NCBI GenBank assembly: GCA_021413705.1
Contig: JAIOPX010000105.1
Span: 1 to 64,000 of the forward strand
DNA: 64,000 nt
Direction: 5' to 3'
Source of the DNA: Planctomycetota bacterium
Lineage (GTDB): Bacteria; Planctomycetota; Planctomycetia; Pirellulales; UBA7805
Made by a program: the position numbers and the translations under genes. Below, piece after piece: positions 22,274-60,677 of this stretch. The first letter of the stretch is position 1. The number at the start of each line of letters is the position of its first letter. Under the pieces are notes generated by a model. That model was not told the DNA's origin and ran no database searches. It was given only the letters and a program-made list of their open reading frames with translations.

Positions 22274-22283
22274 AAATCCTCAG

Positions 22284-23417: not shown

Positions 23418-23440
23418 GGTTCGTTGTCCTAGTGTCTTCG

Positions 23441-23570
23441 ACCGCTCGCCTTTGGCGAGCGGGGGGCGTAAGCCCCCTGTTTCTTCCCGCTCCGAAGTCA
23501 GCCCCACATTGTCTGGCAGCACGACGCCAACGGCCGGCTTCCGCCGGCGGCTCACACCGACCGCTCGGCT
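23441..23570. repeat. composite element, GCGAGCGGGGGGC...CGACCGCTCG family
   Basis: It begins with CCGCTCGCC-TTT-GGCGAGCGG, then GGGGGC-GTAA-GCCCCC, and ends with the GCCAACGGCCGGCTTCCGCCGG hairpin and GACCGCTCG. The same order recurs at 26848-26955. Half-elements occur at 31733 and 42999. Confidence 0.85.
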
Positions 23571-42991: not shown

Positions 42992-42998
42992 TAATCTC

Positions 42999-43070
42999 GG
43001 CGAGCGGGGGGCGTGAGCCCCCCGTTCTCCTCACGGCAAAGTAACAGGGGGCTTACACCCCCCGCTCGCC
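42999..43070. repeat. inverted pair of GGCGAGCGGGGGGC half-elements
   Basis: GGCGAGCGGGGGGCGTGAGCCCCCCG faces CAGGGGGCTTACACCCCCCGCTCGCC about 24 bp apart. It separates the two Hsp70-like genes. Confidence 0.9.
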
Positions 43071-43082
43071 AACGAGTACATC

Positions 43083-44750
43083 ATGAGCAAAACACCACGC
43101 AAAGCAGTTGGCATCGACCTAGGCACCACCTATTCGGCCGTCGCCCATCTGGACGACACGGGCCGACCGGTGACATTGGTCAACGCAGAGGGAGACTTGA
43201 TCACTCCCAGCGCGGTGCTGTTCGAGGGAAGCAATGTCGTCGTCGGCAAGGAGGCACTCAAGGCTTTGGCGACCGAAGCCGATCAGGTGGCCCAGTGCGC
43301 CAAGCGCGATCTTGGCCACCGCGCGTTCCACAAGACACTCGAAGGACGGCAGTATCCGCCCGAGGCCATCCAGGCCTGGATTCTCAACAAGCTCAAGGTA
43401 GACGCCCAGCGGCAGATTGGCGACTTCAAGCAAGTCGTGATCACGGTCCCTGCCTATTTCGACGAAGTCCGCCGCAAGGCTACGCAGGACGCCGGCCAGA
43501 TGGCTGGGCTGGAAGTTCTGGACATTATCAATGAGCCCACCGCGGCGGCTGTGGCCTTCGGGTATCAGCACGGCTTCATGAACGCGGACGGAGAAGGCCA
43601 GAAACAGCAACGCATTCTGGTCTACGATCTTGGCGGCGGCACGTTCGACGTTACCATCATGGAGATTGGCTCTCGAGAGTTCACGGCGCTGGCCACCGAT
43701 GGCGACGTGCTGTTGGGGGGCCACGATTGGGATCAGCGGATGGTCGATTTCGTAGCGGAAGAGTTCATTCGAACTCACCAGCTCGACCCGCGCGAAGATG
43801 CCTGCACGGCCGGCCGATTATGGCGCGAATGCGAAGACGCCAAGCGCACCCTCTCAGCCCGCATGAAGGCGGCCATTCCGTTCGACTACAAGGGTAAAGC
43901 CGTCCGCGTCGAGGTGACCCGAGAAATGTTCGAGGACTTCACCCGCGACCTGCTCGATCGAACCGAATTCACCACGCGGCAAACGCTGCAAGCGACCGGG
44001 TTAGGGTGGAAAGACATCGACCGCGTACTGTTGGTCGGCGGCAGCACGCGAATGCCGATGATTCGCGCAATGCTGGTGAAGCTCTCCGGCAAAGAGCCCG
44101 ACTCATCCGTCAGTGCCGATGAAGCAGTTGCTCACGGGGCGGCGCTGCGGGCGGGACTGATTCAAGCCAAGCACGACGGCAGCCCGCCGGCGTTCGCCAT
44201 CAAGAACGTCAACTCCCACAGCCTTGGCGTTGTCGCTACCGACGCCAAGACGGGGCGCCTCCGCAATGCCATCCTCATTCCGCGCAACACGGGCCTCCCC
44301 GTCAGCGCCCGCCGGGTTTTCAAAACACAGCGAGCCGGGCAGAAGTCGATCCTCGTGCAAATTGTCGAAGGGGAGAGCGCCTCGCCGGAAGACTGCTCGC
44401 AGATCGGCAAGTGTGTGGTGCGCGACCTGCCCGAGACGCTGCCGGCCCAGACGCCCATTGATGTTCGCTTTCGCTACCTGGAAAACGGCCGATTAACGAT
44501 TACGGTGAATGTGGAAGGAACCAGCAAGGAGCTGAAGCACGAGATCGCCCGGGAGAACAGCCTCAGCCAGGAGCAGATCGAAAGCTGGCGGCAGTACATC
44601 ACCGCCATCAGCGGCGGCGCCACGCCTGTGGTGGCGGACGGAGGCCTGGCGGTGAGTGACTCGAAGGTGCTGGGCGAAGCCCCCAGCCCCAGCGAATCGA
44701 GCACCTCGGGACTTAAAAGGGGTGACAGCGGCAGACAACGCTGGGCGTAA
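43083..44750 (+). CDS. soluble Hsp70-like protein without helical lid
   Basis: The 555-residue product carries the Hsp70 ATPase domain (GIDLGTTYSAVAHLDD, TVPAYFDEVRRKATQDAGQMAG, INEPTAAAVAFGY, VYDLGGGTFDVTIME, LVGGSTRMPMI). A short beta-sandwich follows (NSHSLGVVATD, NTGLPVSARR, IVEGES, IDVRFRYLENGRLTI) ending in a polar tail. It lacks both the lid and the membrane helix of its upstream paralogue. No DnaJ or GrpE gene is nearby. Paired lidless Hsp70s in planctomycetes may serve a dedicated client, but none can be named. Confidence 0.9.
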   Translation: MSKTPRKAVGIDLGTTYSAVAHLDDTGRPVTLVNAEGDLITPSAVLFEGSNVVVGKEALKALATEADQVAQCAKRDLGHRAFHKTLEGRQYPPEAIQAWILNKLKVDAQRQIGDFKQVVITVPAYFDEVRRKATQDAGQMAGLEVLDIINEPTAAAVAFGYQHGFMNADGEGQKQQRILVYDLGGGTFDVTIMEIGSREFTALATDGDVLLGGHDWDQRMVDFVAEEFIRTHQLDPREDACTAGRLWRECEDAKRTLSARMKAAIPFDYKGKAVRVEVTREMFEDFTRDLLDRTEFTTRQTLQATGLGWKDIDRVLLVGGSTRMPMIRAMLVKLSGKEPDSSVSADEAVAHGAALRAGLIQAKHDGSPPAFAIKNVNSHSLGVVATDAKTGRLRNAILIPRNTGLPVSARRVFKTQRAGQKSILVQIVEGESASPEDCSQIGKCVVRDLPETLPAQTPIDVRFRYLENGRLTITVNVEGTSKELKHEIARENSLSQEQIESWRQYITAISGGATPVVADGGLAVSDSKVLGEAPSPSESSTSGLKRGDSGRQRWA

Positions 44751-44859: not shown

Positions 44860-47187
44860 TCAGTAGTTTTTGAAGTAGTACTGAGCCACCTTCTGAGCAA
44901 TCGCTTGCCAACGAGTATCGCCCGTTGACTGGGCGCTGCAACTGAAAGTGGTAACGGCGTATTGCCAGTTGACGTTCTTAATGGTGCCGCTTGGCCCGGT
45001 CTCAACGCCGGTTCGAGTATTGCCGTCCGTCGAAATGAGTCCGCTGGAAAGAACTCGCGATTGTTCCCAGGCCAGCCCCTTGCTCAGCATGGTTTTGACT
45101 GCCGACGTCGTAACATCGTTGGGGAAGTAGGTGGCCCACAATTGAGCGTAGGTAAGGCCGACCGCTTGGTAACTACTGTCATATCCGCCTGCTTCAGGAT
45201 TCACTCCATTGGTCCATTGCCATGAAACGCCCTCTTTGATCTGAGATCGCGCCAGGCTCGACAAGAGAGTATTGCCTCCCACCAGCCGACTCGTTAATCC
45301 CATTGCCGTGGCAACCAGGTAGCGACGGTGCGTATACGGACTGTTGTTGGAAATACCTCGGCTCCACACCTCCGGCCGGGCCATCCAGAGCGCCGCCTTG
45401 TAGATTCGGTTTTTATAGATGTCGATCTTGGCTTGATACTGATCGGCATAGGGAGATTGTTTGAGCAGGAGACAGGACCGGGCCACGGCCTGAACAAAAA
45501 ACGAGGTGCTGTGAAATGGGTCTTGAGTGCCTGTGAAACTGCCGTCGGCCGCCTGTTGTTTGAAACCCCAATCGAAAGCCTTGAGGCCAGCCGCTATCTT
45601 CGCTGGATCGTTGTGGAGGAGTCCGTCGATGATCAGGCACTCTCCGTATCGCTGTTGCTCAATATACCACTTGGAGGATGTGCCCTGCTCCCACTTGGCA
45701 TTCACTCCCCAAGCTCCGCTAGAAACCATCTCGTCCCAGGTCAAATCACCGTAGACGGTGTTCGCCAGGAGGTTTGCGGACAGAAGTTGGAGATCATTGA
45801 GCGAGCTCGCCGAAGTTGCCGCGGAAATCTTGGCAGTGGTCTTCGAGATCAGGGAATCGCCGTTCCTTCCCGTGACCTTCAGTGTGACGGTATAGGTTCC
45901 CGGGGCAGCATATTTGTGGCTCGTCGTGGCACCGGAAGCCGTGCCGCCATCCCCAAAATTCCAAGCGTAAGTGAACCCGGCATTGGAATCGAGCATCCCA
46001 TTGTCGCGGGCCAAGGCGGCAAAGGATACGGACTTGCCAGCGGCCCCTTGGTAGGGACCAAGAATGTTCACGCGCAACGGCGAGTCCACGGCCGTGATCG
46101 TGACGGCGCTGGTCAAGCTTTTAGCGCCATCCTTGTCGGCGACGGTCAGCCTGGCGACATACGTCCCCTCGTCGTCCGGCTTGAAAGTGAACTTTGTTGA
46201 ACCGCCGGTTGAGGAGGCAAACGGACTTCCATTTTTGGTGACCGACCAGGATGCCTGAAACCCGGCGGTGACGTCGGCCGCGCTGGGGTCGCTCACGCTG
46301 CTCGACAAGGTAATGCTGGATCCCTCGCTGATTTCTCCGACAGGAGCGCCTTTGAGGCCGATGCGCGGCGCCACGTTCTTCACGATGACGGTCGAGACGG
46401 CCCGGCCAACTCGGCCCTGGGAATCTGTTGCGGTCAACGTGACAAGATAGGCGCCATCGTCGGCATATCGATGTTTCGTGACTAAGGTTCCTGTGGCAGT
46501 TTTACCGTCTCCAAAATCCCACACATACGATAAGCCTGTCGGATCGATAGCCGATCCTTTGAAGGTCAACTCGGAACCTTCGGAGCCAACTTGATCAGGG
46601 CTGATGGCGACGCTCGGCGCCTGTGAGGTCGTGCTCACGACATCCAGGGCACTGATCGCCCAACGCACGGTGACCCCCCCGCGATCTACGAGCCTCATCG
46701 CCAGCTTGCCATCGGTCACTTCCACGCGGTACGTGGGACGGTAAGGGCGCCCCGCTTCAACGGTGATGTTGGAGGCCACCTGCTTGCCATTGAGATAGAT
46801 ATCCATGTGGTCCCGCAACATTGCGTTATCCCCCATGGTGGGAGTCACCAGATAGTCGCCGTTGGGAAGGTCCAAGCGAAAGGTACGGTCTTTCCCGGCG
46901 TGTAAATCGCTCGTCAGCGAGGTTCCGCTGCTGCGAAGGACTTCCCGCACGCTGCTCGGGTCTGTCCAGCCGTATCCAGTCGCCAGGCTGTAGCGGGTTA
47001 CGGGGACGCTCACATAACCGCTACCCACCGAGGACGAACTGGTACCGAAATCGAGATGGTATGCCGCCATCATCCTCCGCGGCTCCAACTCATCCAACTG
47101 GAGCCGCTGTGAAAATGGGCGATTTCGGGGGCGCAGCGGTTTGCGACACCTCTTGAGAAGCTGAAAGATGCCAGTAAGCCAAGCCAC
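44860..47187 (-). CDS. secreted PKD-domain protein with C-terminal helical toroid-like region
   Basis: The N-terminus has a basic stretch and LDELEPRRMMAA, the LEPR-type export signal of planctomycetes. A malectin/CBM-like domain follows (YHLDFGTSSSSVGSGYVSV, DIYLNGKQV), then three PKD-like domains (YVWDFGDGKT, a middle one with DEGTYVARLTV, and YAWNFGDGGT). About 300 residues of paired helices come last (WYIEQQRYGECLIIDGLL, SPYTHRRYLVATAMGL), suggesting an alpha/alpha toroid of the polysaccharide-lyase/hydrolase type. Catalytic residues cannot be assigned. It is divergent from a glycan-assembly gene run, so it may act on that glycan. Confidence 0.75.
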   Translation of the reverse strand: MAWLTGIFQLLKRCRKPLRPRNRPFSQRLQLDELEPRRMMAAYHLDFGTSSSSVGSGYVSVPVTRYSLATGYGWTDPSSVREVLRSSGTSLTSDLHAGKDRTFRLDLPNGDYLVTPTMGDNAMLRDHMDIYLNGKQVASNITVEAGRPYRPTYRVEVTDGKLAMRLVDRGGVTVRWAISALDVVSTTSQAPSVAISPDQVGSEGSELTFKGSAIDPTGLSYVWDFGDGKTATGTLVTKHRYADDGAYLVTLTATDSQGRVGRAVSTVIVKNVAPRIGLKGAPVGEISEGSSITLSSSVSDPSAADVTAGFQASWSVTKNGSPFASSTGGSTKFTFKPDDEGTYVARLTVADKDGAKSLTSAVTITAVDSPLRVNILGPYQGAAGKSVSFAALARDNGMLDSNAGFTYAWNFGDGGTASGATTSHKYAAPGTYTVTLKVTGRNGDSLISKTTAKISAATSASSLNDLQLLSANLLANTVYGDLTWDEMVSSGAWGVNAKWEQGTSSKWYIEQQRYGECLIIDGLLHNDPAKIAAGLKAFDWGFKQQAADGSFTGTQDPFHSTSFFVQAVARSCLLLKQSPYADQYQAKIDIYKNRIYKAALWMARPEVWSRGISNNSPYTHRRYLVATAMGLTSRLVGGNTLLSSLARSQIKEGVSWQWTNGVNPEAGGYDSSYQAVGLTYAQLWATYFPNDVTTSAVKTMLSKGLAWEQSRVLSSGLISTDGNTRTGVETGPSGTIKNVNWQYAVTTFSCSAQSTGDTRWQAIAQKVAQYYFKNY

Positions 47188-47860
47188 AGTGACAGAATCC
47201 TCGCGAAATAGGTTGAAAGTCGCGGTGAGCCCACTGGAGGTGCGTCAGCAAGGATGAGAACTCGGGGGAGCCAATCGGCAAGTTTGCAGATTTCGCTGCG
47301 ACCAAGGAGAAGTGAATCGGTGCGATAGCGCTGAGAGAAGTACGACCTGAGTTCGCCGAGCCCGTTTCGGCGGGGGCGAAGTGTAGGGAGGAGCATCTGG
47401 AAATCGCAAGAGCAACTGCACGCTCCAAACCGAGCGCCAGCAGGGACGGTCTCCCCGACTTTTTGGGGGCATTAGCGCGCACGCAAGCACGAGACATCGA
47501 GACAGCACGGCATCCATTGATGCGTGTATGACTATGCTCCACTCTGTACGATTTGCGTCACGATGATTGAACAGTGAATGAAGATTGTCAGTGATTTACG
47601 CTGCAGCGTGAGTCCGAAAATCAGCGGCACACCTTGCCCAGTCGTAACGCAGAGGTTGCTGCCAATACTAGCTGTGATGTGAAACACATCAGCGAACGAG
47701 TGACGTTTTGGAAACCGAACCGGTTTCTCGGAGATCAATTCCTGCAACAAGAAAAGAAAAATTTTGTGGATTTGTTGATGTTACGACAGTTGGCATGTAA
47801 TTCGCCTTGCAGGGTGGACCAATCCCGCAAGGGGGCTGCACTCAACGGAACGGAAAATCC
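47188..47860. other. large divergent regulatory region between the PKD protein and the glycan cluster
   Basis: This 670-bp spacer has no convincing ORF. The tracked minus-strand frames at 47090-47542 show no conserved features, and three frames overlap over the same bases. It holds the sigma-54-like site at 47790. AT content rises sharply after about 47680, as expected for a promoter region. I see no repeats of the families found elsewhere. Confidence 0.35.
47790..47806 (+). promoter_or_regulatory. sigma-54-like -24/-12 site before the glycan cluster
   Basis: TTGGCATG-TAAT-TCGCC has GG and GC exactly 12 nt apart and differs from the TTGGCACG-N4-TTGCW consensus at three positions. The predicted start of transcription would be near 47817, about 44 nt before ATG 47861. 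Single-site matches can be chance. Confidence 0.35.
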
Positions 47861-48922
47861 ATGACTCCTCCATCAGTCTTATCGCCAGCGCCGAAAGCAT
47901 CGCCTGTCGCTGTCAGTGCTACGCAACAGGGAAAGAGAGAGTTCGATGCAATTCGTCGTCGGACCGATGACGCCCCAGTCGTCAGCAGGATGTTGAGTTT
48001 TGTGATCCCCATCAAGGATGAGCAAGACTCGATTGTGGACCTCTACTGCCTGATCGAACGCGAGGTCGAAGCCAACTCCGCGTTTGAGGTGATCTTCGTG
48101 GACGATGGCAGCCGCGACGGCTCCTGGGAGATGATCTCGGAGCTGGCTCTGGCCAAGCCGGACCATGTGCGGGGAATTCGGTTTCGCCGCAATGCCGGAA
48201 AAGCGGCTGCTTTGAGCGCCGGTTTTCAGTCGGCCCGGGGGAGCGTCGTGTTCACGCTCGACGGCGATCTTCAGGACGATCCTCACGAAATTCGCCGCTT
48301 TTTAGCCAAGTTGGACGAGGGCTACGACCTCGTCTCTGGCTGGAAAAAAGTGCGCCACGACCCCTGGCACAAGGTCTGGCCAAGCCGCGTTTTCAACCGC
48401 ATGATCAGCCACCTCGGCGGGGTTCCGTTGCACGACCACAACTGTGGATTCAAGTGCTACCGGGCGGAAGTGGCCAAGAATTTGGCGGTCTACGGCGATT
48501 TGCACCGGATGATACCCAGCCTCGCCGCCATGCAGGGATATCGTTCGACAGAAATCGAGGTTTTGCACCATCCGCGACTCCATGGCACCAGTAAATACGG
48601 TGTCGGCCGGTTTCTGCGCGGATTTTTTGACATGCTCACGATCTATTTCTTGCGGCATTTCAGCGAACGCCCTGCACATTTCTGTGGGGGGGTGGGAGCC
48701 GTCATGCTGCTTATGGGAATTATTTTGTTTTGCGGTGTGCCACTGGCGGGAGCGGAATCGCCCCGCCTGGCAGCCGTGGGAATGGGAGCGGCGCTGCTCG
48801 CCGCCACTCCCGTCATCTGGACCTTGGGTTTTATCGCGGAACTTCTCAATAGGAGCACGTTGCACCGGCAACGAAAGCTGCCGATCTGCGAAGACACCGA
48901 TGAGCCCATTTCGTCCATCTGA
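47861..48922 (+). CDS. family 2 glycosyltransferase, polyprenyl-phosphate sugar synthase type
   Basis: The catalytic domain (FVIPIKDEQDSI, FEVIFVDDGSRDGSWEMI, GIRFRRNAGKAAALSAGFQSARG, TLDGDLQDDP, DHNCGFKCYRAEV) is of the DPM1/GtrB type that makes polyprenyl-phosphate sugars. Two C-terminal membrane helices follow (VGAVMLLMGIILFCG, LAATPVIWTLGFIAELL). It could supply the lipid-linked donor needed by the GT39-like enzyme encoded 5 kb downstream. ATG 47861 gives 353 residues; the tracked start at 47807 is a TTG inside the promoter zone. First gene of the plus-strand cluster. Confidence 0.9.
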   Translation: MTPPSVLSPAPKASPVAVSATQQGKREFDAIRRRTDDAPVVSRMLSFVIPIKDEQDSIVDLYCLIEREVEANSAFEVIFVDDGSRDGSWEMISELALAKPDHVRGIRFRRNAGKAAALSAGFQSARGSVVFTLDGDLQDDPHEIRRFLAKLDEGYDLVSGWKKVRHDPWHKVWPSRVFNRMISHLGGVPLHDHNCGFKCYRAEVAKNLAVYGDLHRMIPSLAAMQGYRSTEIEVLHHPRLHGTSKYGVGRFLRGFFDMLTIYFLRHFSERPAHFCGGVGAVMLLMGIILFCGVPLAGAESPRLAAVGMGAALLAATPVIWTLGFIAELLNRSTLHRQRKLPICEDTDEPISSI

Positions 48923-48957
48923 CATTCCTATGTATCACACGCACATGCGAGACAATC

Positions 48958-50328
48958 ATGTATTCTCCTGTTGGAAGCACTCAGGCTGTTCGTTCGCTGC
49001 GCATTTTGGTCATCGCCTCCACTTATCCGCGCCACGAGGATGACTACGCAGTACCCTGGCTACGCACCTCGGTTCAACACCTGGTCGAGCGAGGTCATCG
49101 GGTGTCGGTGTTGGCGCCATCCTATAAGGGACTTGGCAGTCACCAGATTGATGGAGTGATGGTCCACCGTTTCAGGTATGGCCCGGCGTGTTGGGAGCAG
49201 TTGACCCACGAAGAAGGTGCGCCGAGCCGGATTCGCAATCATCCTCTCTACCAATTGATGGGACTGCCGTATGTTTGCCTGGGTTTGCGGGCCGGGTTTC
49301 GCCTTGCTCGCCGAGAACCCTTCGACATCGTCCACGTTCACTGGCCGTTTCCTCACGGCCCGATCGGACTTGCGGCTGCCCGCGCATGCGGGGCCAAAGT
49401 AGTCATGACCTGCCACGGGGCAGAGTTCGCGATGGCCCGCCGAAAGCGTTGGACGCGCCCGCTGCTGCGACACTCGTTGCGGCGTGCCGATCTTCTCTTG
49501 GCCAATAGCACAGACACGGCCAAGCATATCGAGAGTCTAAGCGGATGCAAGGCGGCTGTTCTCCCCTTTGGATCGACGGTCGCAGCGGCTCCGATTCTCC
49601 CGCCTGAGAATGAAACGCCAGCCCTCGTCGCATCCGAGCACCGGATCTCGCGAGTTCTCTTCACGGGACGGTTGATCCAGCGCAAAGGGGTGGAATATCT
49701 TCTCCGAGCTGTCCCGTTGATACTGGCCCGGCGACAGGCCGAGTTCATCATTACCGGCGACGGTGATCAACGGGCGAGCTTGGAGTCTCTTTCCCACGCG
49801 CTGCACTTGGACGACTCCGTGCGATTTCTGGGGTTCGTCACCAACAAACAACTCGAAGCCCAATATGCGAGGTGCGATGTCTGGGTTAATCCATCCATTA
49901 TCGACGACAACGGCGATACCGAAGGCTTGGGAGTGGGAGCCATCGAAGCGTATGCTCACCGCAAACCGGTGGTGGCTTCGGCCGTAGGCGGAATCCCAGA
50001 TGCGGTCCGGCACGGGATCACCGGGCTCTTGGTTCGCGAGAAAGACTCGCGCCAGTTGGCAGATGCGATCGTCACGATTCTGGACGATCCCGAGCGTGCG
50101 ACGCAGATGGCGGACGCAGGTTTTCGGTTTGCGCAAGAAACTTTCGACTGGTCCAACCTGACGCGACGGTTGGAAGATATGTATTACGAAACGCTCGCAG
50201 AAAAGCAGCCTGCCGAGCGGCCTGTGCGTTCGCGTTTTTCTCTGTTACGCAAGCCGTTTCTCTATCCCTCATCGCGGGGCAATCTGGCTTGTGAAACGTC
50301 CGAAACCCTAGAGGCCATCGACCCATGA
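48958..50328 (+). CDS. family 4 glycosyltransferase
   Basis: This GT-B fold retaining glycosyltransferase of 456 residues is probably cytosolic and uses a nucleotide sugar. The N-domain has RILVIASTYPRHEDDYAVPWL and DIVHVHWPFPHGPIGLAAA. The C-domain has VLFTGRLIQRKGVEYLLRAVPLI, FIITGDGDQ and the donor-site DTEGLGVGAIEAYAHRKPVVASAVGGIP. Sugar specificity cannot be told. Its last four bases overlap the start of the next gene (ATGA), so translation is coupled. Confidence 0.9.
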   Translation: MYSPVGSTQAVRSLRILVIASTYPRHEDDYAVPWLRTSVQHLVERGHRVSVLAPSYKGLGSHQIDGVMVHRFRYGPACWEQLTHEEGAPSRIRNHPLYQLMGLPYVCLGLRAGFRLARREPFDIVHVHWPFPHGPIGLAAARACGAKVVMTCHGAEFAMARRKRWTRPLLRHSLRRADLLLANSTDTAKHIESLSGCKAAVLPFGSTVAAAPILPPENETPALVASEHRISRVLFTGRLIQRKGVEYLLRAVPLILARRQAEFIITGDGDQRASLESLSHALHLDDSVRFLGFVTNKQLEAQYARCDVWVNPSIIDDNGDTEGLGVGAIEAYAHRKPVVASAVGGIPDAVRHGITGLLVREKDSRQLADAIVTILDDPERATQMADAGFRFAQETFDWSNLTRRLEDMYYETLAEKQPAERPVRSRFSLLRKPFLYPSSRGNLACETSETLEAIDP

Positions 50329-51347
50329 AGCCACAACACGCGCGCATCGTGAAAATAGCAACTGCAGTCGCCATTGTTGCCAGTGTCGCGGTATTTTTGC
50401 TGCCGGCAGCGATGACGCTGATGGAGCAGTTATCGGGGCGTTTTGCCGACTTCCGCTGGATGTCGCTGGGAATTGCTATTGGGTTAGCTCTTATCTACTG
50501 GCCGGCCAGCGCCTACGGCTGGAACTTGGTACTAGGGGCGCTTGGCCATGCATTGCCGACGCGAACGGCCATTCGCATCTGGGTTTCGACTCAAACCTGC
50601 CGTTGGTTGCCTGGCGGGGTGTGGCATTACAGTTCTCGCACGTTGCAGGCCATCAGTCAGGGAGTGCCTTCCACGGTGGCCGTGGCCAGCATGGGGCTGG
50701 AACTGCTCCTGACGATTGCCGCCTGGGGAGTCGTCGGCGTGATGGGAATGGCCTGGTATGGCAACCGTCAGTTTCAGGTGGAACGAATCTTTTCGGCAGG
50801 AACGATCGAGGTCATTCTCTCGGGCGTCCTGTTGCTGATTCTGTTTGGCGCAGCCGTTTGGCTCTCCGCGCGCTGGTTTCCTCAGAAGCTACTGGCCATG
50901 AGAGAACGATTGGTCTCGCTTCGAGCCGTCAGGCCGCGGGCGATTCCCACGATAATGAGCTTCCTGGTGTACATCGCACTCGCGATGCTCAACGGCCTGA
51001 CCTTTTATGCGGTCATCGATGCGGTATCTCCGGACCATCACGTTCCTTTATTGGCCGCTATCTCCATCAATGCACTGGCCTGGGTCGTGGGGCTTCTGGC
51101 CATCATGGCGCCGGGGGGACTCGTCGTGCGCGAAGCGGCCCTGGCATTGCAGTTGGGCTTGTGGATGCCCCCTGCGGAGGCCGTTTTGATCGCCGTGTTG
51201 TGGCGGCTGGTGCAAATGGCAGTGGAAGTGGTGTGTGTTACCGGCTCCTACGTTCCCCAATCCTTGGGAGCGCGGCTTGCACGTCGTCTTAGGCCAGCCG
51301 AGCCGTGGAATGGTCTTTCAACACTTGAAACCAAGTCAACCAAGTAA
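50325..51347 (+). CDS. UPF0104/LPG-synthase-TM-like membrane protein
   Basis: A 340-residue polytopic protein with eight or so helices resembles the transmembrane (flippase) part of lysylphosphatidylglycerol synthases and UPF0104 proteins: RIWVSTQTCRWLPGGVWHY, NALAWVVGLLAIMAPGGLVVREAALALQLG. In glycan clusters such proteins are often found next to glycosyltransferases and may move or modify lipid-linked intermediates. It overlaps the GT4 gene by 4 nt. No Wzx or ABC exporter is present in the cluster, so it is a candidate for that step (inference). Confidence 0.8.
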   Translation: MKPQHARIVKIATAVAIVASVAVFLLPAAMTLMEQLSGRFADFRWMSLGIAIGLALIYWPASAYGWNLVLGALGHALPTRTAIRIWVSTQTCRWLPGGVWHYSSRTLQAISQGVPSTVAVASMGLELLLTIAAWGVVGVMGMAWYGNRQFQVERIFSAGTIEVILSGVLLLILFGAAVWLSARWFPQKLLAMRERLVSLRAVRPRAIPTIMSFLVYIALAMLNGLTFYAVIDAVSPDHHVPLLAAISINALAWVVGLLAIMAPGGLVVREAALALQLGLWMPPAEAVLIAVLWRLVQMAVEVVCVTGSYVPQSLGARLARRLRPAEPWNGLSTLETKSTK

Positions 51348-51372
51348 CTTTGAGATGTGACAGGTGAAAACA

Positions 51373-52935
51373 ATGGTACCCCTTCAAAGCAACGATGACA
51401 GTGACTCCAAGAGCGCAGCCACGAAGGCGCGGAATCAATTGACGAATCGAGGCTGGGGAATCCTGCCGCTCCGCAATCACGCGGGAACCATGGTGGTGGT
51501 CTTCTTCACCCTGGCTGCGTCCGCTGCGATTGTCTGGTATGTCGTGCGGCCAACCTACATGCACCCCAGTAATCGCACCTATACCTCGGGAATGGGATAC
51601 CCAGCCATCTTGCGAGCGCAGGGAAAACCCTTTCCCGTGACAACCGGACACGCGACCGAGCGAGTGCTCAATCACCAGTTTCTGGGAGAAGGTATCATCG
51701 AGACGGAACCAGTGCGCGTGCCCATCGTGCCTGAGGGGCGTGTCGCCCGCGTGCTCGTCGAGGAGGGAGATCACGTTAAGCGAGGGCAGGTTCTGGCGGA
51801 ACTCGATACTTCGGTTCAGGAGAGCAAGATTGCCGAAGCCAAGAACGCCATTGATGCGGCAGCAGTCCAGGTAGAACGCGCACGGGTTGGTTCTGTATAC
51901 GGAATGCAGATGGAACGCCCCGAGATCGTGCGTGCTCAACTGGAACTGGCAAAAAAGCAGGTCAAGATTACCAGTCAACTCGTGGAAGCCTATGGCAAAT
52001 TGCAGAAGCAGAACGTCATTTCCGCCGAAGCGATGCTGCAACAGGAGCTTGCCGCCAATCAGGCTTTGGCAACGCTAAGCGAGGCGGAGCAGAACACCAA
52101 GATCTCGCAGGCCGGACGCCCCTTGAGCGTGCAGGCGGCAGAACTGGCTTTGCAAGAAGCTCGCTTGAAGCACAAAGTCTACACCCGTGAATTGGAGGAT
52201 TTCAAGATTCGCGCGATCGCCGATGGCATGGTAGCTCAGGTGCTGATTCACGAAGGTGAATACAACCGCAACATCGGAACCTCGGCCTTCGTGTTGGCTG
52301 TGGGACAATGGTTCGGCGGCAATTTCGACCAGACCACCATGGGCCGCTTTCCCGAGGGAGCCCCTGTACACGTCCGGCTGGAAGCCTTTCCCGGCAGGGT
52401 GTTTGAAGGTCGAGTTCGCAAAGTGAAGCCGATGGTCACCTATAACTCTGGCGGGCCTGAAGCTGCTCGACCGATTCGTCCTATGGGAACCGGCTCGCCC
52501 GAATGGCCCGCCACATTCACCACGCGGATCGAACTGGTCGCCGGGAGTGAGTTGCCAGGTATTGTCCCCGGCCTGACAGGATTTGCTGAAGTCAAAGTGG
52601 AGCGGCGCGGCACGGCCGTGCCCGATGGCAGCCTGACCTCGGTTGCAGCGGGGCGGGCGATTGCCTATGTGGTGGAAGGAGATAAGTTTCACGCGCAGCA
52701 AGTCGCGATTGCCCAGGCATCCGACGGCTGGATTGAGATTTTGTCCGGTCTGACGCCCGGCACTGAAATCATCGTCGACGGACACCAGATCCTTCGCCCC
52801 GGAGACCGCATTCTTGGTACACCTGCCAAGAGCGCATCGTCTCCGGCAAATGAGAAGATTGCTCGCCCTGCTGAGCAGCCCAATAAGGTTGCTCAGGGAA
52901 TTGAAGTTGTTACTCCAACACTGATGGGCAGGTAA
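51373..52935 (+). CDS. HlyD/RND-type membrane-fusion adaptor protein
   Basis: The 520-residue protein has one N-terminal membrane helix (TMVVVFFTLAASAAIVWYVV). A biotinyl-lipoyl half (GRVARVLVEEGDHVKRGQVLAELDTS) is followed by a long coiled-coil hairpin (residues 150-260, rich in Ala/Glu/Gln), the second lipoyl half (FKIRAIADGMVAQVLIHEGEY) and beta-barrel domains ending DGHQILRPGDRIL. Such adaptors connect inner-membrane pumps to an outer-membrane channel. No pump or channel gene is adjacent, which is unusual. ATG 51373 follows AGGTGA; GTG 51364 is the alternative. Confidence 0.88.
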   Translation: MVPLQSNDDSDSKSAATKARNQLTNRGWGILPLRNHAGTMVVVFFTLAASAAIVWYVVRPTYMHPSNRTYTSGMGYPAILRAQGKPFPVTTGHATERVLNHQFLGEGIIETEPVRVPIVPEGRVARVLVEEGDHVKRGQVLAELDTSVQESKIAEAKNAIDAAAVQVERARVGSVYGMQMERPEIVRAQLELAKKQVKITSQLVEAYGKLQKQNVISAEAMLQQELAANQALATLSEAEQNTKISQAGRPLSVQAAELALQEARLKHKVYTRELEDFKIRAIADGMVAQVLIHEGEYNRNIGTSAFVLAVGQWFGGNFDQTTMGRFPEGAPVHVRLEAFPGRVFEGRVRKVKPMVTYNSGGPEAARPIRPMGTGSPEWPATFTTRIELVAGSELPGIVPGLTGFAEVKVERRGTAVPDGSLTSVAAGRAIAYVVEGDKFHAQQVAIAQASDGWIEILSGLTPGTEIIVDGHQILRPGDRILGTPAKSASSPANEKIARPAEQPNKVAQGIEVVTPTLMGR

Positions 52936-52940
52936 CGAGC

Positions 52941-53825
52941 ATGCGCCGCTTATTGATCCAACTGTTGGCGATTGCCGGCGTGGCCGTCAGTGTGCTGAGT
53001 TGTGGACTGATGTGGTTTGCCATTCCGGTCGGTGCTGAACCGATGTTTGCATCGCCGGAAGCAATTCACACCGATCAGCCGCAGTTCACCATGACCTATC
53101 GCCTGGTCACGGTCGTCGCGTTGGCAATCATTGTCATTTGTTGGGCACTGGGAAAAGCCGGTTCATGGGGTCTGCTGGCAACCTGCCTGTGGCTCTCGGC
53201 ACTGCTCACCTTTCCCTACGCCGTCATGAATTGGGAGCCTAGGATCGCCGGCGATGCGGCCTGGCTCGAAGCTCAACACCGCAATCTGATTTGGTCTGGC
53301 GGCGATTTGAACATGAGTCTCGGTCACCGCATTGACGGTGTGATGGACAAGATCCTGCTGACCCAGACGCCGCGGAGCGTCAATCCCGTGGAGGTTAGCG
53401 AATGGCAGCCCAGTGAGTTGACTTTGGCGCGGTTGCCTAACTTGGTGGATCGACTCGGCTACTCCAACAAGTTTTTCGAATTCATTCGTCCTGGCTGGGT
53501 TGCCGCGCTGGCAGGAAGCATTCTGATTCTGGTGGCCATCGGGGCTCCTGTTGGCCATCTCGACATAGGGCGCTTCGTGAGGATGTCTGGCATCCTCTCG
53601 GCATCCATTCTTCTACTTGCCCTGGCCGCCTGGTGCTGGTCCTTTGCTGCGGCGTCGGACCTCACAGTAGCGGCCAATAGCACTGCCCGGGGTGACTATG
53701 AGATGGCTTTGGATGCCATGCAACGCGCGAAAGACAAACTTCCCTCGCTGGCAGAAGATAGCTATTTCATTGCTCAGCAGGGACTGCTGGAAGATGCATT
53801 AGGCAGGCGGACTGCCGCGGGCTGA
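52941..53825 (+). CDS. membrane protein, N-terminal part (frameshifted)
   Basis: The 294-residue frame encodes about five membrane helices (LLIQLLAIAGVAVSVLSCGLMWF, VTVVALAIIVICWALGKA, WVAALAGSILILVAIGAPVG and ASILLLALAAWCWSFAAA). A TPR-like start follows (GDYEMALDAMQRAKDKLPSLAEDSYFIAQQGLLEDALG) and then TGA. The TPR pattern continues at once in the +1 frame (53845-54210), so the two ORFs are most likely one gene broken near 53805-53825. It starts 5 bp after the adaptor gene. Role in the cluster unknown. Confidence 0.75.
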   Translation: MRRLLIQLLAIAGVAVSVLSCGLMWFAIPVGAEPMFASPEAIHTDQPQFTMTYRLVTVVALAIIVICWALGKAGSWGLLATCLWLSALLTFPYAVMNWEPRIAGDAAWLEAQHRNLIWSGGDLNMSLGHRIDGVMDKILLTQTPRSVNPVEVSEWQPSELTLARLPNLVDRLGYSNKFFEFIRPGWVAALAGSILILVAIGAPVGHLDIGRFVRMSGILSASILLLALAAWCWSFAAASDLTVAANSTARGDYEMALDAMQRAKDKLPSLAEDSYFIAQQGLLEDALGRRTAAG

Positions 53826-53844
53826 TGTTGCCTACGAGCGCCTC

Positions 53845-54210
53845 GTGGACGATGCCGAAACCCCGGCCGCTATTCGCCGTGAGGCCTGCCGAGCGATGCT
53901 CCGTTCGGCCATCGACGCGCTCAATGCCGGACGAACCAATGCGGCTGCGGAACTCTTGGAAAAGGTGCTAGCTACCGAGCCGTGCAATCTTAAGGCGAAC
54001 TACGCGCTGCAACTTGCCTGTCTGCGAGCGGGGCGCTATCAAGAGGTTCCTCAATTGGCTCTCCGGCTGGAAGCAGTTTATCGCTCTTTTCAATTTCCTT
54101 CCAAGTTGGCGGTTGTTTCCGCGTCTTATCAAAACGCCGTAGTGGCTGATGCCGCCGAGGGAAACACCAAGCTCGCCGTGGCCCACGGACGAAAGGTGGC
54201 AAAACCTTGA
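53845..54210 (+). CDS. TPR-like C-terminal part of the preceding gene
   Basis: The frame is open from just after the upstream TGA (encoding DVAYERLVDDAE) and carries helical repeats: MLRSAIDALNAGRTNAAAELLEKVLATEPCNLKANYALQLACLRAGRYQEV. GTG 53845 has no ribosome site. Continuation of the upstream helical repeat makes a single-nucleotide or two-nucleotide indel the simplest explanation. Its TGA overlaps the TTG start of the next gene (TTGA), indicating coupling. Confidence 0.65.
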   Translation: MDDAETPAAIRREACRAMLRSAIDALNAGRTNAAAELLEKVLATEPCNLKANYALQLACLRAGRYQEVPQLALRLEAVYRSFQFPSKLAVVSASYQNAVVADAAEGNTKLAVAHGRKVAKP

Positions 54211-57200
54211 AAATCTGGCGACTCCAAACTGTTACCCAGGGTGCAGAGCCGCTGGCCATCCAGCGAACGCTCCTGCCGGACGCTGCCGATGTGCAAACTC
54301 CCCAGCAGCGCACTGCAGATGGTTTAAAGACCAAGCTGCGAAAAACGAGTCGCCTGCCGGAAGCTCCCTCGCTTCGGCGTGCGTTGCCTCCCGATGAGAA
54401 GGCGCCATTATCGGACGACTCACAGCCTACTGCGCAACCTGGGGCGAGTCCTCCGCGAAGCAGGTGGCGGTTGCCGATCACTCCCAGGCAGACGATCGTC
54501 ATGGCGGGATTGATCGCAGCTGCGGCCTTCTGTGGAACCTATGCGGTGGCCAAGTGGAGAGAGTTCAGCGGTGAACCCGTGCGCCCCTACAGCGAGATGA
54601 AGGGCCAGTGGATTCAAGCGACTTCCGCCTCGGGCATGGACGTCTACACCGGCGTTTTTCGGCGCGAGCTCCGTCTCCCGGGCCATGTGCGCAATGCTTG
54701 GATTGCCGTGGCTGCTCGCGATGGGTTTGAAGTGACGGTGAACGGCCGGGCCATCGGGTGGCAGCACATGTGGCGACCCACGCGGCCTTTTCAAACGGGA
54801 CTGAGCGAGCGCGGGCAATGGTTGGAGTGGCCCAAAGTGGCTCTCTCGCTTAACTTCGCGAGGGAGTATCAATGGACGGATCATCAAAATTATCTCCTGC
54901 CCGTGTTTATCGATCTGTCTCCGTATCTTCACGTTGGAAAAAATGTGGTAGGCGTGAGCGTCGAATCCCGCCAGGCTCCGGCCAAGGTTCGCTTTGACGG
55001 CGCCGTTACGTTATTCAGCGGAGAAACGATTTCACTCGCCAGCGGCGTCGATTGGAAGGCGGAGGTCATTCCCCCGTATTATCAGAACATCGAATGGTGG
55101 AGCACCAACTACGCGGCGCTCAACTGGCGGCAGGCTGCGCTAACAGACGCGCCTCCCGGCCAGTCGCTCCGCGCGTTTCATCCGGGTTTGTTTTCCACGC
55201 CGTTTCGTGGCAATTGGATCCGCCATCCGCAAGCCAATGCCCAGGACTCAGTTTGGTTCCAGTGCGATTGGCAGATTGATCGACAGCCTGACGAGGCATG
55301 GTTGCGGCTGGCTGCGAATCGCAATTTCGAGCTCTACGTCAACGGCCGGCGGGGCTATCCCCAAACCCCGGACGACCATGGCCAAGACACGGGAGAATGG
55401 ATCTACGGCCATAAGAGGACGGGCGACCAGTGGCTCGACCCGGAGCAGATGTTTTCCCATGACGTGGGTGACGAGTTTATCGCCCATCAATACATCGGTC
55501 CGCCGAAGGAGCCGCTCGGTGTCGATAAGCATCAGTTTAAAACAATCGCCGACGACGCGACGCGTAAGAGCAAACTCCCTGACCCCAATTGGGCCATCGA
55601 AACGCGAACTCCGCTGATGCTGCGGCATGATGCTTCGGTAGGCGCTTATGTCGGTTACAACTTAACCGGCATGCTCCGCCAAGGCGCGAACACCATTGAG
55701 GTGCGACTGAACCGCCCTGCTACGGCAGATCCTGTCAATTGGCTTGGCCAGATTGCCGCGGACGGGGAAGTTACTTTTCGCGACGGTACTCGTCAGCCCC
55801 TGATCTCCGATGGCACCTGGAAATCCCGTAAGTCGGGCTCGAACTCGCTGCCGCCGGAACTGGTGGACGCGCAGCAGATAGGGCCGGCGCAGCAATCGGA
55901 TCAGCGACTGTCGAAGCTACAGTATCGCGGCTCTCCAACGCACATCGATTTCTTTCCCTCCTGGGTTGGCGTGGCCGGAGCAACGACGGGAGCAGGGTTG
56001 CTGGCTTTCACCGGTTTACTGTTCCTTGGAACAGCATGGCCCAGCCGGAAGTCGCAAACTGTAGTAACACCATCGCAGTCGATTGTGAGCCAAGGGATGA
56101 ACGTCGTTGGCGATGCGCTCTTGGCGTTTACCGCCGTCCTCGCTGGCGCCATAATCGTGCAAGCGGCGTTCGGCGAGCGCAGCGAACAAATGTGGTTTAT
56201 GCTGCCGACAACCTGGCAGTGGTGCATCGTTGCGGCAGTGGCTCTGGGCGTGCTGGCGGCCGTTGTGCGAGTGGCGCGACTGACCGGGAGTAGATATCTC
56301 AGCACCTCTCCGGCCATCGCGGGACAATGGCTCCGCGACCTTCCCAACACCCGCCTCTGGACGATTGCGGTAATCGCTTTCTGCCTGTTGACATTCTTCA
56401 CGCGGGCCTACCGCCAGGAGTTCCAGCCACTGGATTACGATGAAAATCCGTCGCTGCTGGCTCTGCAATCGGTGGCCCGCACTGGTATTCCCAGCTATGT
56501 GCCTGAAGCCGTCTGGTACACGCGCAGCCCTCTGTATCACTACATCACCGGCGCCTTCGTGTGGCTGCTAGGTGAGAACCTCTGGGCGGCACGGCTGCCG
56601 ACCGTTCTGTTCAGCGTCGCCACGGCTCTGCTGCTGTACATGTGCGGATCTCGCTTGCTGAAGCGTCCTTGGATCGGGATGGCGGCAATGATTCTCACGC
56701 TCATTCATCCGCAGATGTTCATGACCGGACACATGATCCGGTTTTATCAGCAACAACAATTCTTCGGCTTGTTGACCGCCTACTTTTTCTGCAAGGGGTT
56801 TGTGACAGACCAATCGCAAGGGTACCGCTACCTCACGGTCGTGGGATTCTTGGCAGCCACTTTAAGCCAAGAGATTACAGCCGTCTTAGCTGTGCCGCTG
56901 GCCGTTGGCTATTTGTTTTTCGCGGGTCAAAAAACCATCGCCGAGAATATCAAGTTGATAGTGGGAGCGGGATGTGCGCTGCTGGTCATCGTCATTGACT
57001 ATCTGTTGTATGCAACACACACGATGACCCGCCTGGAGGGCTTTTCAACCACGATGCAAGCCGACATCGGCCCCCATCTTTGGGATCCGTACAATCTAGT
57101 GACGGTCTTTCTGAGTTATTCGCGAATTCATCTGCCATTGACGTTCATGTTCCTGCTTGGCTTGCCAGCAGCTCTGTGGGAACGCAATCGCGTGGTGTTT

Positions 57201-58004
57201 GCCCTCCACATGCTTCTCTTCGGCAATATCATCATGCTCAACCTCATGGTCACGCAGGTGAGCGTTCGCTATGTGTATTGGCTCTTTCCCTTGCTGATGC
57301 TGCTGGCGTTGGACAACGGCCGCGCAGGACTTGCCTGGCTGATTGGCGCCATTCGGGGACAACATCGGCGATTGGCAGTCTCCGGTTTACAGCAGAAGAA
57401 TCACACTGCCTCCCTGCAGCTCAGCAGCCGAGTATGGGGCTTGGAGCGAATCGTCCCAGGGCGGCAGAACTTTGCCTCTATGACATGTTGGAGCGTCTTG
57501 TTTGTCGCGACGATCGTTTCCTGGTCGCCGTGGCGATTGCCGGGCACCTACAGCACGAAGCTTCTGGCCGATTCCAACGGAGCATTTCAATACATTCAAA
57601 GCCAACTTCGTCCGGGTGATTTGATCGTAGTGACTCAGCCGCATGCCAAAGGCGCGCTGATGGAAATTGGTCGCGTGAACTACGAACTGCACATACCCAT
57701 GGTTTACGACTTTGTGTTGCGACAGGACGGTCGATTGGTGGAGCGCGGCGCTGGGGCCGGAGTGATTTATTCCGTCGAGCAGTTTCAGAAACTATGTGCG
57801 GAGCACGAGCGGGTATGGATCGCTATTGATCGCGAACAATATCCGTTCCGTGGAGAGCGGATACGCTTTGCCCATGCGGGCGCGCGGATGGAACTCTTCC
57901 TGCGCAAGAACACCGAGGTCATGCATCGGACGCACATGTGGAATGTTTATCTTTGGGACACCAATCGGGGACTGTATCGCTCGTTCCGAAAGAATGGAAC
58001 TTGA
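54207..58004 (+). CDS. GT39-like membrane glycosyltransferase with N-terminal beta-sandwich regions
   Basis: A 1265-residue protein. A polar N-terminus and one membrane helix (about 98-115) lead to about 450 residues of beta-sandwich resembling the sugar-binding domains of GH2/rhamnosidase-type enzymes (AWIAVAARDGFEVTVNGRAIG, WLRLAANRNFELYVNGRRG, GYNLTGMLRQGANTIEVRLN). The second half is a GT-C enzyme of the GT39/ArnT type: LDYDENPSLLALQ for the acidic first loop, YTRSPLYHYITGAF, then about ten helices. It would transfer a sugar from a polyprenyl carrier outside the membrane. The start TTG overlaps the upstream stop. The domain combination is unusual. Confidence 0.8.
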   Translation: MKIWRLQTVTQGAEPLAIQRTLLPDAADVQTPQQRTADGLKTKLRKTSRLPEAPSLRRALPPDEKAPLSDDSQPTAQPGASPPRSRWRLPITPRQTIVMAGLIAAAAFCGTYAVAKWREFSGEPVRPYSEMKGQWIQATSASGMDVYTGVFRRELRLPGHVRNAWIAVAARDGFEVTVNGRAIGWQHMWRPTRPFQTGLSERGQWLEWPKVALSLNFAREYQWTDHQNYLLPVFIDLSPYLHVGKNVVGVSVESRQAPAKVRFDGAVTLFSGETISLASGVDWKAEVIPPYYQNIEWWSTNYAALNWRQAALTDAPPGQSLRAFHPGLFSTPFRGNWIRHPQANAQDSVWFQCDWQIDRQPDEAWLRLAANRNFELYVNGRRGYPQTPDDHGQDTGEWIYGHKRTGDQWLDPEQMFSHDVGDEFIAHQYIGPPKEPLGVDKHQFKTIADDATRKSKLPDPNWAIETRTPLMLRHDASVGAYVGYNLTGMLRQGANTIEVRLNRPATADPVNWLGQIAADGEVTFRDGTRQPLISDGTWKSRKSGSNSLPPELVDAQQIGPAQQSDQRLSKLQYRGSPTHIDFFPSWVGVAGATTGAGLLAFTGLLFLGTAWPSRKSQTVVTPSQSIVSQGMNVVGDALLAFTAVLAGAIIVQAAFGERSEQMWFMLPTTWQWCIVAAVALGVLAAVVRVARLTGSRYLSTSPAIAGQWLRDLPNTRLWTIAVIAFCLLTFFTRAYRQEFQPLDYDENPSLLALQSVARTGIPSYVPEAVWYTRSPLYHYITGAFVWLLGENLWAARLPTVLFSVATALLLYMCGSRLLKRPWIGMAAMILTLIHPQMFMTGHMIRFYQQQQFFGLLTAYFFCKGFVTDQSQGYRYLTVVGFLAATLSQEITAVLAVPLAVGYLFFAGQKTIAENIKLIVGAGCALLVIVIDYLLYATHTMTRLEGFSTTMQADIGPHLWDPYNLVTVFLSYSRIHLPLTFMFLLGLPAALWERNRVVFALHMLLFGNIIMLNLMVTQVSVRYVYWLFPLLMLLALDNGRAGLAWLIGAIRGQHRRLAVSGLQQKNHTASLQLSSRVWGLERIVPGRQNFASMTCWSVLFVATIVSWSPWRLPGTYSTKLLADSNGAFQYIQSQLRPGDLIVVTQPHAKGALMEIGRVNYELHIPMVYDFVLRQDGRLVERGAGAGVIYSVEQFQKLCAEHERVWIAIDREQYPFRGERIRFAHAGARMELFLRKNTEVMHRTHMWNVYLWDTNRGLYRSFRKNGT

Positions 58005-58022
58005 TTCGAGGGTCAGTGCAAC

Positions 58023-59912
58023 ATGGGCGGCCGGCTTTTCATCCTGGTAATGATAACGTCTGTACTGGCGGCATGGCCGGCGCTGGTAACGGCTCAATCG
58101 CCGCGAGACACCGTCCGCCTGGCAGAACTCGATCGCCAGCAGCGGCTCTGGGCTAATCTGGCAGAGTCGGACCCCAGCGAAGAAGTTGGCTGCCGCGAGA
58201 TCATGGGTCATGCGTTGGCGTTGGCCGAAGCCCGGCAAAATCCTGAGTGGCTGGGAAGGCTGTTTGAATTGTTGGCGCGGATGCAGGACCGCGATCGCCA
58301 AAGCAAGACCTTCGGCAATCTCAGATGGCGTTGGGGGGATACGGAAGTCAACGATCTGAACGCCGTGGAGTTTTGCTTGCACGATGCGCTGTTGCTCTGG
58401 AAAAGACATCGCGACTGGATTCCCGCGGAAGTCCGACCGCAAGTATCAATGTTCATTCGATACGCGATGGAAGGAGTTCGGCGGCATCGCGTCGCAGCGA
58501 CGTACACGAACATCGCCCTGACGCGCACCGCCAATTTGATCATCGTGGGTGAGGTGCTGCGCCGCCGGGATGTTGCGGAAGAGGGAGAGCAGCGGCTGGA
58601 TGAGCTGGTAAGCTGGACGGCAGCGCACGGCATCCGAGAATGTGTCAGTCCAACCTACTACGGGGTAGATATCAATGCCCTGATGCTCATTGCCACGTTG
58701 AGCGAGAGCGATCGTGTCCGGCGTCAGGCGGACGCGCTATTGAAGCTATTCTGGACCGATATTGCGCTCAACTGGTTTCCGCCGTCCGAGCGGCTGGGGG
58801 GAGCCAACAGCCGAACCTATGACTATCTCGCCGGTCGTGGCGCACTGGACTGGCATCTGTGGTCGAACGATTGGTTTCACTCGCCGACGCCTGGAAAATC
58901 CCATCGCGTCGAACCCTATTGGCATGAGTGGACTCCCCCGGCCGAGCTTCACGCCATGAGCTTGCAGCGCGTGCCGCGGCTGGTTCGTCAAAGCTGGGGC
59001 GACCGCTTGGGACAGTCGCGAACGTACATGCTCTACCGCGACATCGCCCTCTCCACGCTCAGCGCCGGCTATGGTCCCGAGGACGTTCCGCTCGCCATCG
59101 ACATCCTTGGGCCGCGCGGAACGCCGCGGGCATTCTTCCGCGCCGATGACCGACAGAATCCCTATGGAATGAAGAAGCACGCCAGCGGCCCGGGCGGCCA
59201 GATGAAAGCTACCCACCCAACGCCTTTCTGGATCGGCGCGCAGCGTTCCAGCGACGCATTAGTGATGGCCATCTACGATTCGAAAGCGGACAGCTTGGAG
59301 GAGCTTCAGAGCCACCTCGTCCTCCCCCGCAAGGCGCAGTCGATCACGATCGGCGGCGATCCGGTGGATATGTCCCTAGACGGAAACAAGAAGCGTTCCG
59401 TCCTTCCCGGCCAGGCAATTGTACTTCGTTACGGCACGGCGGCCGTGGGGCTGCGAGTGCTGACCGCCGCTACCCGACAGGGGCGCACAGCATCTCTAGC
59501 CCTGATTGACGACGACAATTCCTATAACTGCATTCGACTTACGGCCGAGCATGGTGCAGGCGAGCCGCTGCGCGAGATAAAGACTGGCGCTGCTGACGCC
59601 AACATCGCGCTCTGGGTGCGTGTGGGTACGAATCTCGCTGACGAAGCTTCGTTCCAAGCATGGCGCAAGATGTTTGAAGACTCACAACCGACGCGGATCG
59701 CGATCACTGCCGAAGGGGTCGCACTTGAAGTGCCGGGCCTTGAAGGCGCGGTAGCACTTTCGGCCAGATTCAACTCAGAGGGGCAGGCATCCGCAGACCG
59801 CATTATCCCTGAGCCTAGCCGCAGTGTGCTGGAACTCGACGGCCAGGACGTGGGCCGCACCCTGTTGGATGCGGCCATCGACTCACAAGCTCATCCCTCC
59901 AAATCCCCATGA
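58023..59912 (+). CDS. secreted helical-toroid/beta-sandwich protein (polysaccharide-lyase-like)
   Basis: This 629-residue exported protein has a signal ending LVTAQS. Residues 40-300 are helical with conserved aromatics and charged pairs (NALMLIATLSESDRVRRQADALL, EWTPPAELHAMSLQRVP). The C-terminal half is beta-rich (HLVLPRKAQSITIGGDP, QAIVLRYGTAAVGLRVL). That plan fits alpha/alpha-toroid plus beta-sandwich polysaccharide lyases such as heparinase II/III relatives, but I cannot point to the catalytic residues. It lies directly after the GT39-like gene and may trim or modify the cluster's glycan outside the cell. Confidence 0.65.
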   Translation: MGGRLFILVMITSVLAAWPALVTAQSPRDTVRLAELDRQQRLWANLAESDPSEEVGCREIMGHALALAEARQNPEWLGRLFELLARMQDRDRQSKTFGNLRWRWGDTEVNDLNAVEFCLHDALLLWKRHRDWIPAEVRPQVSMFIRYAMEGVRRHRVAATYTNIALTRTANLIIVGEVLRRRDVAEEGEQRLDELVSWTAAHGIRECVSPTYYGVDINALMLIATLSESDRVRRQADALLKLFWTDIALNWFPPSERLGGANSRTYDYLAGRGALDWHLWSNDWFHSPTPGKSHRVEPYWHEWTPPAELHAMSLQRVPRLVRQSWGDRLGQSRTYMLYRDIALSTLSAGYGPEDVPLAIDILGPRGTPRAFFRADDRQNPYGMKKHASGPGGQMKATHPTPFWIGAQRSSDALVMAIYDSKADSLEELQSHLVLPRKAQSITIGGDPVDMSLDGNKKRSVLPGQAIVLRYGTAAVGLRVLTAATRQGRTASLALIDDDNSYNCIRLTAEHGAGEPLREIKTGAADANIALWVRVGTNLADEASFQAWRKMFEDSQPTRIAITAEGVALEVPGLEGAVALSARFNSEGQASADRIIPEPSRSVLELDGQDVGRTLLDAAIDSQAHPSKSP

Positions 59913-59921
59913 GGTTTTACC

Positions 59922-60677
59922 ATGAAAGCTAATCTTCGAGAGTGGCTGACCCAGGTTCCCGGCATGTCGAGAATGTTGCAACGCGTGCTGATACCTTTTC
60001 ACGACTCGGCGCAGTATTGGGAGCGCCGCTATCGTGTCGGAGGCTCGTCTGGAGCCGGATCGTATGGCCGACTCGCCGAATTCAAAGCGGAGTTCCTCAA
60101 TGCGTTCGTGGCGGAACAGCGAGTGGAGTGTGTGATCGAATTCGGCTGCGGAGATGGCCATCAACTTTCGTTGGCCGAGTACCCCCATTACATCGGCCTC
60201 GACGTTTCCAAACAGGCGATTTCCTTGTGCCGCGAAACTTTTGGCAGCGATGATACCAAAAGCTTCTTCTTGTTTGATCCCGAATCGTTCGTGGACAATC
60301 AAGGCTTGCTTCGTGCCGATTTGGCGCTCTCTTTGGACGTGATCTATCATCTGGTCGAAGACCGAGTGTTTCACGCCTACATGACCTGCCTGTTTCAGCA
60401 AGCAAAGCAGTATGTGATTGTTTACTCATCCAACGACGGAAATGCCGCTGCGTCCTCACCCCACGTTCGGCACCGTCGCTTTACAAGCTGGGTTGAAGTT
60501 GCTGCCCCCCATTGGCGACTGAGCCGACACATTTCCAACAGGTATCCTTTTGATCCCAAGGATCCCCAGGAAACGTCCTTTAGCGACTTTTATGTATTCC
60601 AGCGAGTGGAAGTGACGGCCAAGAGTGATGCATTGTTGCCTCCGCAGTTCGGTGAAGAGCGTTGCAGCGTCTTGTGA
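59922..60677 (+). CDS. class I SAM-dependent methyltransferase
   Basis: The 251-residue cytosolic protein has the Rossmann SAM-binding motif (VIEFGCGDGHQL) and further strands YIGLDVSK and ADLALSLDVIYHLVED. A glycan cluster context suggests O-methylation of a sugar or capping of the chain. GAGG lies 8 nt before ATG 59922, and the preceding gene ends 9 bp upstream, so it is the last gene of the run. The acceptor is unknown. Confidence 0.85.
   Translation: MKANLREWLTQVPGMSRMLQRVLIPFHDSAQYWERRYRVGGSSGAGSYGRLAEFKAEFLNAFVAEQRVECVIEFGCGDGHQLSLAEYPHYIGLDVSKQAISLCRETFGSDDTKSFFLFDPESFVDNQGLLRADLALSLDVIYHLVEDRVFHAYMTCLFQQAKQYVIVYSSNDGNAAASSPHVRHRRFTSWVEVAAPHWRLSRHISNRYPFDPKDPQETSFSDFYVFQRVEVTAKSDALLPPQFGEERCSVL

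Follow-up and report, generated by a model that had tools for sequence, protein, structure and literature searches.

Glycans of Gram-negative bacteria are taken to reach their exit by three routes. Ducts composed of an adaptor and a TolC-like channel are taken to require an energised pump, and pump genes usually adjoin their adaptor gene. The Citrobacter ORF15-ORF14-ORF12/GT136 system provides a Gtr-type precedent for a donor enzyme, a flippase, and a GT-C glycosyltransferase with a CBM (PMC11127046). As for regulation, H-NOX acts on the syp exopolysaccharide genes of Vibrio fischeri (PMC8738867), and the syp regulator SypG is sigma-54-dependent according to the work listed as reference 51 in PMC12195369. 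In the open-licence literature, we found no published description of the gene set reported here, and no paper on point that joins HlyD, TolC, and glycan export in Planctomycetota or Verrucomicrobiota. Here, we report that the genes for a GT2, a GT4, a UPF0104 protein, a periplasmic adaptor, a membrane/TPR protein, and a GT-C enzyme constitute a conserved gene system.

The window is a 64,000-nucleotide stretch from a planctomycete genome, a 6.58 Mb draft of 457 contigs that is 89% complete and 6% contaminated. Nine ORFs, all on the plus strand, are tightly packed within positions 47807–60677, with intergenic gaps of at most 35 bp and a 4-bp overlap at two junctions. ORF calls and family matches confirmed the presence, positions, and strand of the genes named in the initial annotation. 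As had also been claimed, none of the nine ORFs matched Wzx, Wzy, an ABC exporter, or a synthase: the window locus contains neither the flippase nor the polymerase of the Wzx/Wzy-dependent pathway, nor the exporter pair of ABC-dependent polysaccharide export, nor the processive membrane synthase of the synthase-dependent pathway. It also contains no initiating phosphoglycosyltransferase. A WecA-type glycosyltransferase gene adjoins an O-antigen-ligase/Wzy_C gene about 25 kb upstream on the opposite strand (19846–23609), possibly a separate glycan locus, and Wza-type genes reside on other contigs of the genome. Divergent from the GT2 gene lies a gene (44860–47187, minus strand) whose secreted product combines three PKD domains with a galactose-binding-like one, and which has an ortholog at the equivalent position in one relative (L016, 65.6% identity). 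Just ahead of it is a tandem pair of Hsp70-like genes (40994–44750, plus strand), the first of which encodes a C-terminal hydrophobic helix.

An adaptor-profile scan of the genome collection identified at least 25 homologous loci, all but one of them named as Planctomycetota or Verrucomicrobiota, the exception being labelled “uncultured bacterium”; this count is a lower bound because the scan picks up only sequences in which two short peptide patterns match exactly. A GT-C search of the phylum gave two relatives with the same neighbours. Conservation of gene order was the test set by the initial annotation, and the order adaptor, membrane/TPR, GT-C was found in all 23 readable loci (the 25 minus those cut by a contig end) across two phyla. 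GT2 and GT4 are both nearby in 17 of the 25 relatives, and UPF0104 is present in 21, including a fusion in L018. UPF0104 is absent from L027, the TPR gene of L028 has diverged, and L022 and L025 keep adaptor, TPR, and GT-C with no GT2, GT4, or UPF0104 in the sequence around the locus. In L027, a marine planctomycete locus on the same contig as L010, the GT2, GT4, adaptor, TPR, and GT-C genes overlap or nearly so. The gene set is rare, with 3 carriers among the 288 genomes from Planctomycetota and 3 among the 289 from Verrucomicrobiota, and the tree of adaptor and GT-C separates the two phyla with full support.

The proposed composition of the locus held for the six-gene core and failed for its two last members. 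The gene for the secreted accessory protein (58023–59912) has an ortholog in L016 only, and that for the SAM methyltransferase (59922–60677), in the same direction as the core, has none in the 25 relatives. Their short spacing suggests that both are co-transcribed with the window locus. The description of the secreted protein as “toroid-like” found no support, with no match in Pfam or the PDB and a structure model at a pLDDT of 38.5; this model, built from two sequences only and showing helices first and then strands, was dropped.

Pairwise homologue identities of the adaptor, TPR, and GT-C proteins correlate at r values of 0.95–0.96, with 0.96 for adaptor versus GT-C. The UPF0104 protein follows the adaptor and the TPR protein at r = 0.94 and GT-C at 0.90, and the GT2 identities correlate with those of the other core genes at 0.63–0.81. 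Such correlated divergence supports common inheritance more than common function; shared ancestry alone would yield some correlation. Gene fusions are links independent of the identity correlations: GT4 is fused to UPF0104 in L018, and GT2 ends in a response-regulator receiver domain in L021 (899–2284), L023 (6154–7650), and L024 (6730–8109). The receiver domain suggests that the enzyme may be directly controlled by phosphorylation. A candidate adaptor-UPF0104 fusion in L023 was rejected, as BLAST found the adaptor alone in that ORF.

On the donor side, the longest ORF of the GT2 gene (47807–48922) opens at a TTG (47807), and translation more likely begins with the ATG at 47861. The protein matches PF00535, and its closest NCBIfam models are ArnC (147 bits) and PgfS, both below their equivalog cut-offs; it is much closer to these than to PgaC. 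With ArnC and PgfS as its nearest families, GT2 is likely a polyprenyl-phosphate-sugar synthase. The GT4 glycosyltransferase (48958–50328), assigned by family match, precedes the UPF0104/LPG_synthase_TM membrane protein (50325–51347; PF03706, 62.6 bits), a predicted lipid-sugar flippase; the flippase role of the UPF0104 family is itself a prediction (PMC5898192).

The GT-C enzyme (54207–58004) is GT39/ArnT-like and is predicted to bear two N-terminal periplasmic jelly-roll domains. In our model (pLDDT 71.7, with much of the membrane core at 85–95), the chain runs from one TM helix through two jelly-roll regions into the GT-C core and ends in a small domain. A Foldseek search with the model matched the core to ArnT with TM-scores of 0.62–0.63 by target length, while the scores by query length are low because the matches cover parts alone. 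The jelly rolls matched sugar-binding domains of rhamnosidases and a fungal lectin. Searched by sequence against the PDB, the GT-C profile returned rhamnosidase-type and lectin domains and otherwise chance matches. In the QPLDxDE motif, where a GT-C has its catalytic acid, the acidic residues are invariant in 21 proteins. The PMT_2 match, the ArnT fold, and the invariant DxDE together identify the protein as a GT-C transferase.

Between adaptor and GT-C, nearly all relatives encode a single protein of about 430–500 residues, with about five TM helices and, at the C-terminus, a TPR part that would be periplasmic. The membrane/TPR protein of the initial annotation is present in the window (52941–54210), although its gene is frameshifted into two ORFs (52941–53825 and 53845–54210), the break amounting to a net deletion of about 50 bp relative to L016. 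The frameshift may be real or an assembly fault, the latter because the genome is a draft of 457 contigs.

The adaptor (51364–52935), with one N-terminal TM helix, scores 100 bits with the TIGR01730 (RND_mfp) model, above the cut-off of 94.9, which places it among the HlyD/MexA-type periplasmic adaptors. Its family shares the motif GGPExxRPIRPxGTGxPEWPATF, and in the search of Verrucomicrobiota its members scored at least 570 bits, compared with about 100 bits for the next adaptors. Judged by its identities, which track those of the TPR and GT-C proteins, the adaptor is a dedicated member of the gene set. No energised inner-membrane pump (ABC, RND, or MFS) is encoded among the nine ORFs of the window locus, and no pump family recurs in the 61 other flanking proteins of the relatives, among the matches listed, in agreement with the initial description of an adaptor without a pump. 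In relatives, the locus does include an export part: nine of the 25 loci carry a TolC-like OEP (PF02321) gene, eight by Pfam and L031 by BLAST. The initial annotation had overlooked both this channel gene and the regulatory genes described below. The window locus and the sequence around the other 16 relatives contain no such gene, and several OEP genes are found on other contigs of the window genome. Export gains in likelihood from the TolC-like channel that accompanies the adaptor in nine relatives.

We searched for sigma-54-type sites with weights set by hand from the known consensus and a threshold of 13.5; we abandoned a threshold of 11, at which 440 bases contained 2–5 background sites. 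Within 150 bp upstream of GT2, a site is present in 12 of 17 loci, among them that of the window, against 0.94 expected, and the starts of the other five core genes have 0–1. The promoter-like site of the window, TGGCATGTAATTCGCC (47791–47806, plus strand), differs from TTGC at one base and lies 55–70 bp before the likely ATG of GT2. A sigma-54 activator domain or response regulator occurs at 15 of the 25 loci and an H-NOX-type (haem-NO-binding) sensor gene at 12, one of these confirmed by Pfam and the others called from BLAST matches at about 1e-16 or better. H-NOX genes lie, for example, at 1136–1693 in L015 and 4043–4621 in L022, with ten more relatives, often together with PAS histidine kinases and sigma-54 regulators; HDOD response regulators are near some of these loci. 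We found no H-NOX gene in the 89% complete window genome. A histidine kinase and a sigma-54 activator are encoded 10–14 kb downstream of the window locus (contig C67, 70765–74296; L011, 10766–14297). The core, the channel, H-NOX, and the sigma-54 regulator all occur together in Haloferula rosea KCTC 22201 (L032), a named strain record. By analogy, the control of syp is a parallel for the H-NOX and sigma-54 genes at these loci.

We propose that the six-gene core is one conserved machine whose product, a surface glycolipid or glycan, would be made in the periplasm and moved out, a proposal whose chances we consider evenly balanced. In mechanistic terms, a three-component glycosylation system (polyprenyl-phosphate-sugar synthase, flippase, and GT-C) would be joined to a dedicated, pump-less duct of adaptor and channel, which we deem just as probable as not. 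From the genes, we infer the biochemical steps, export, topology, cargo, gas response, and energy source as follows. Transcription would begin at the sigma-54-type promoter, in many relatives probably under the control of the H-NOX sensor, a histidine kinase, and a sigma-54 response regulator. GT2 would put a sugar on polyprenyl phosphate, and UPF0104 would bring the loaded lipid to the outer leaflet of the inner membrane. There, the ArnT-fold GT-C would grip the acceptor by its jelly-roll domains and then transfer or polymerise the sugar, with GT4 probably making this acceptor or else a second sugar. Together with the TPR protein, the HlyD/MexA-type adaptor would bridge the periplasm to a TolC-like channel, which for the window locus is presumably encoded elsewhere in the genome. 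With no conserved pump, transport would run on synthesis or on an unlinked pump. Of the alternative export system put forward initially, the gene order and the logic of lipid donor, flippase, and outer-face transferase are retained, and export itself is what we infer from the sequences. Single steps could fail and leave the finding of a conserved gene system intact.

An ordinary GT2/UPF0104/GT-C system might instead only decorate a glycan exported otherwise, with the adaptor and the TPR protein as a scaffold. The system of PMC11127046 indeed has the three activities predicted here, including a GT-C with a carbohydrate-binding domain, and the window genome holds other polysaccharide export genes. 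However, such systems come without a dedicated adaptor, which every locus here has, or a TolC-like channel, present in nine. Furthermore, the adaptor tracks GT-C (r = 0.96), and L022 and L025 retain adaptor, TPR, and GT-C where the surrounding sequence has no GT2 or UPF0104. We regard decoration alone as unlikely.

We find it similarly improbable that the adaptor works with an ABC or RND pump encoded away from the locus, since pumps usually adjoin their adaptors and no pump gene recurs near the loci among the matches listed. The cargo would then be a glycolipid, as with DevBCA-HgdD; this idea draws on an adaptor sequence nearest to MexA/MacA/EmrA-type adaptors and on the DevBCA and MacAB precedents (PMC8277102). 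Far less probable is secretion-coupled protein O-glycosylation, in which the GT39-like enzyme would modify a secreted surface protein. Its PMT_2 match and the large SdrD_B surface proteins beside L018 and L033 point in this direction, but the SdrD_B proteins are not conserved neighbours and were rejected as cargo, the fold of GT-C is closer to ArnT than to protein O-mannosyltransferase, and a T1SS ATPase is absent. Beyond the conserved machine that we favour, a further route of glycan export, with a periplasmic GT-C assembling the glycan from polyprenyl-phosphate sugars and feeding it directly to an adaptor-TolC duct driven by synthesis and switched by an NO sensor via sigma-54, would be a possible but doubtful extension.

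Both views given at the outset, on the three exit routes and on the energised pump, are at stake. A conserved, co-diverging gene set in which a lipid-sugar GT-C is joined to an adaptor and a channel, without a pump gene, calls both into question, and Haloferula rosea KCTC 22201 makes the question testable by carrying the full combination.

Compared with the DevBCA-HgdD heterocyst glycolipid exporter, the loci share an adaptor, a TolC-type channel, and a surface-glycolipid context, whereas the DevCA ABC transporter is without counterpart here (PMC8277102). Tripartite efflux and type 1 secretion systems likewise have a HlyD/MexA-type adaptor and a TolC-like outer-membrane factor, the latter in nine of our loci, but the place of their ABC, RND, or MFS pump is taken here by a glycosyltransferase and a TPR protein (PMC8277102). 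The syp locus of Vibrio fischeri has unrelated biosynthesis genes, the window genome is without H-NOX, and the gas response is a prediction here; in both cases, nonetheless, H-NOX, a kinase, and a sigma-54 response regulator are on or beside a glycan locus. From the Gtr type, our gene set differs in its predicted UPF0104 flippase instead of MATE/SMR, its N-terminal jelly rolls, its additional GT4, adaptor, TPR membrane protein, and often TolC-like channel, and the lack of a neighbouring backbone locus. Nevertheless, both combine a polyprenyl-phosphate-sugar synthase and a flippase, each of them predicted in our set, with a GT-C that has an extra carbohydrate-binding domain, and ArnT is the nearest solved GT-C for both (PMC11127046).
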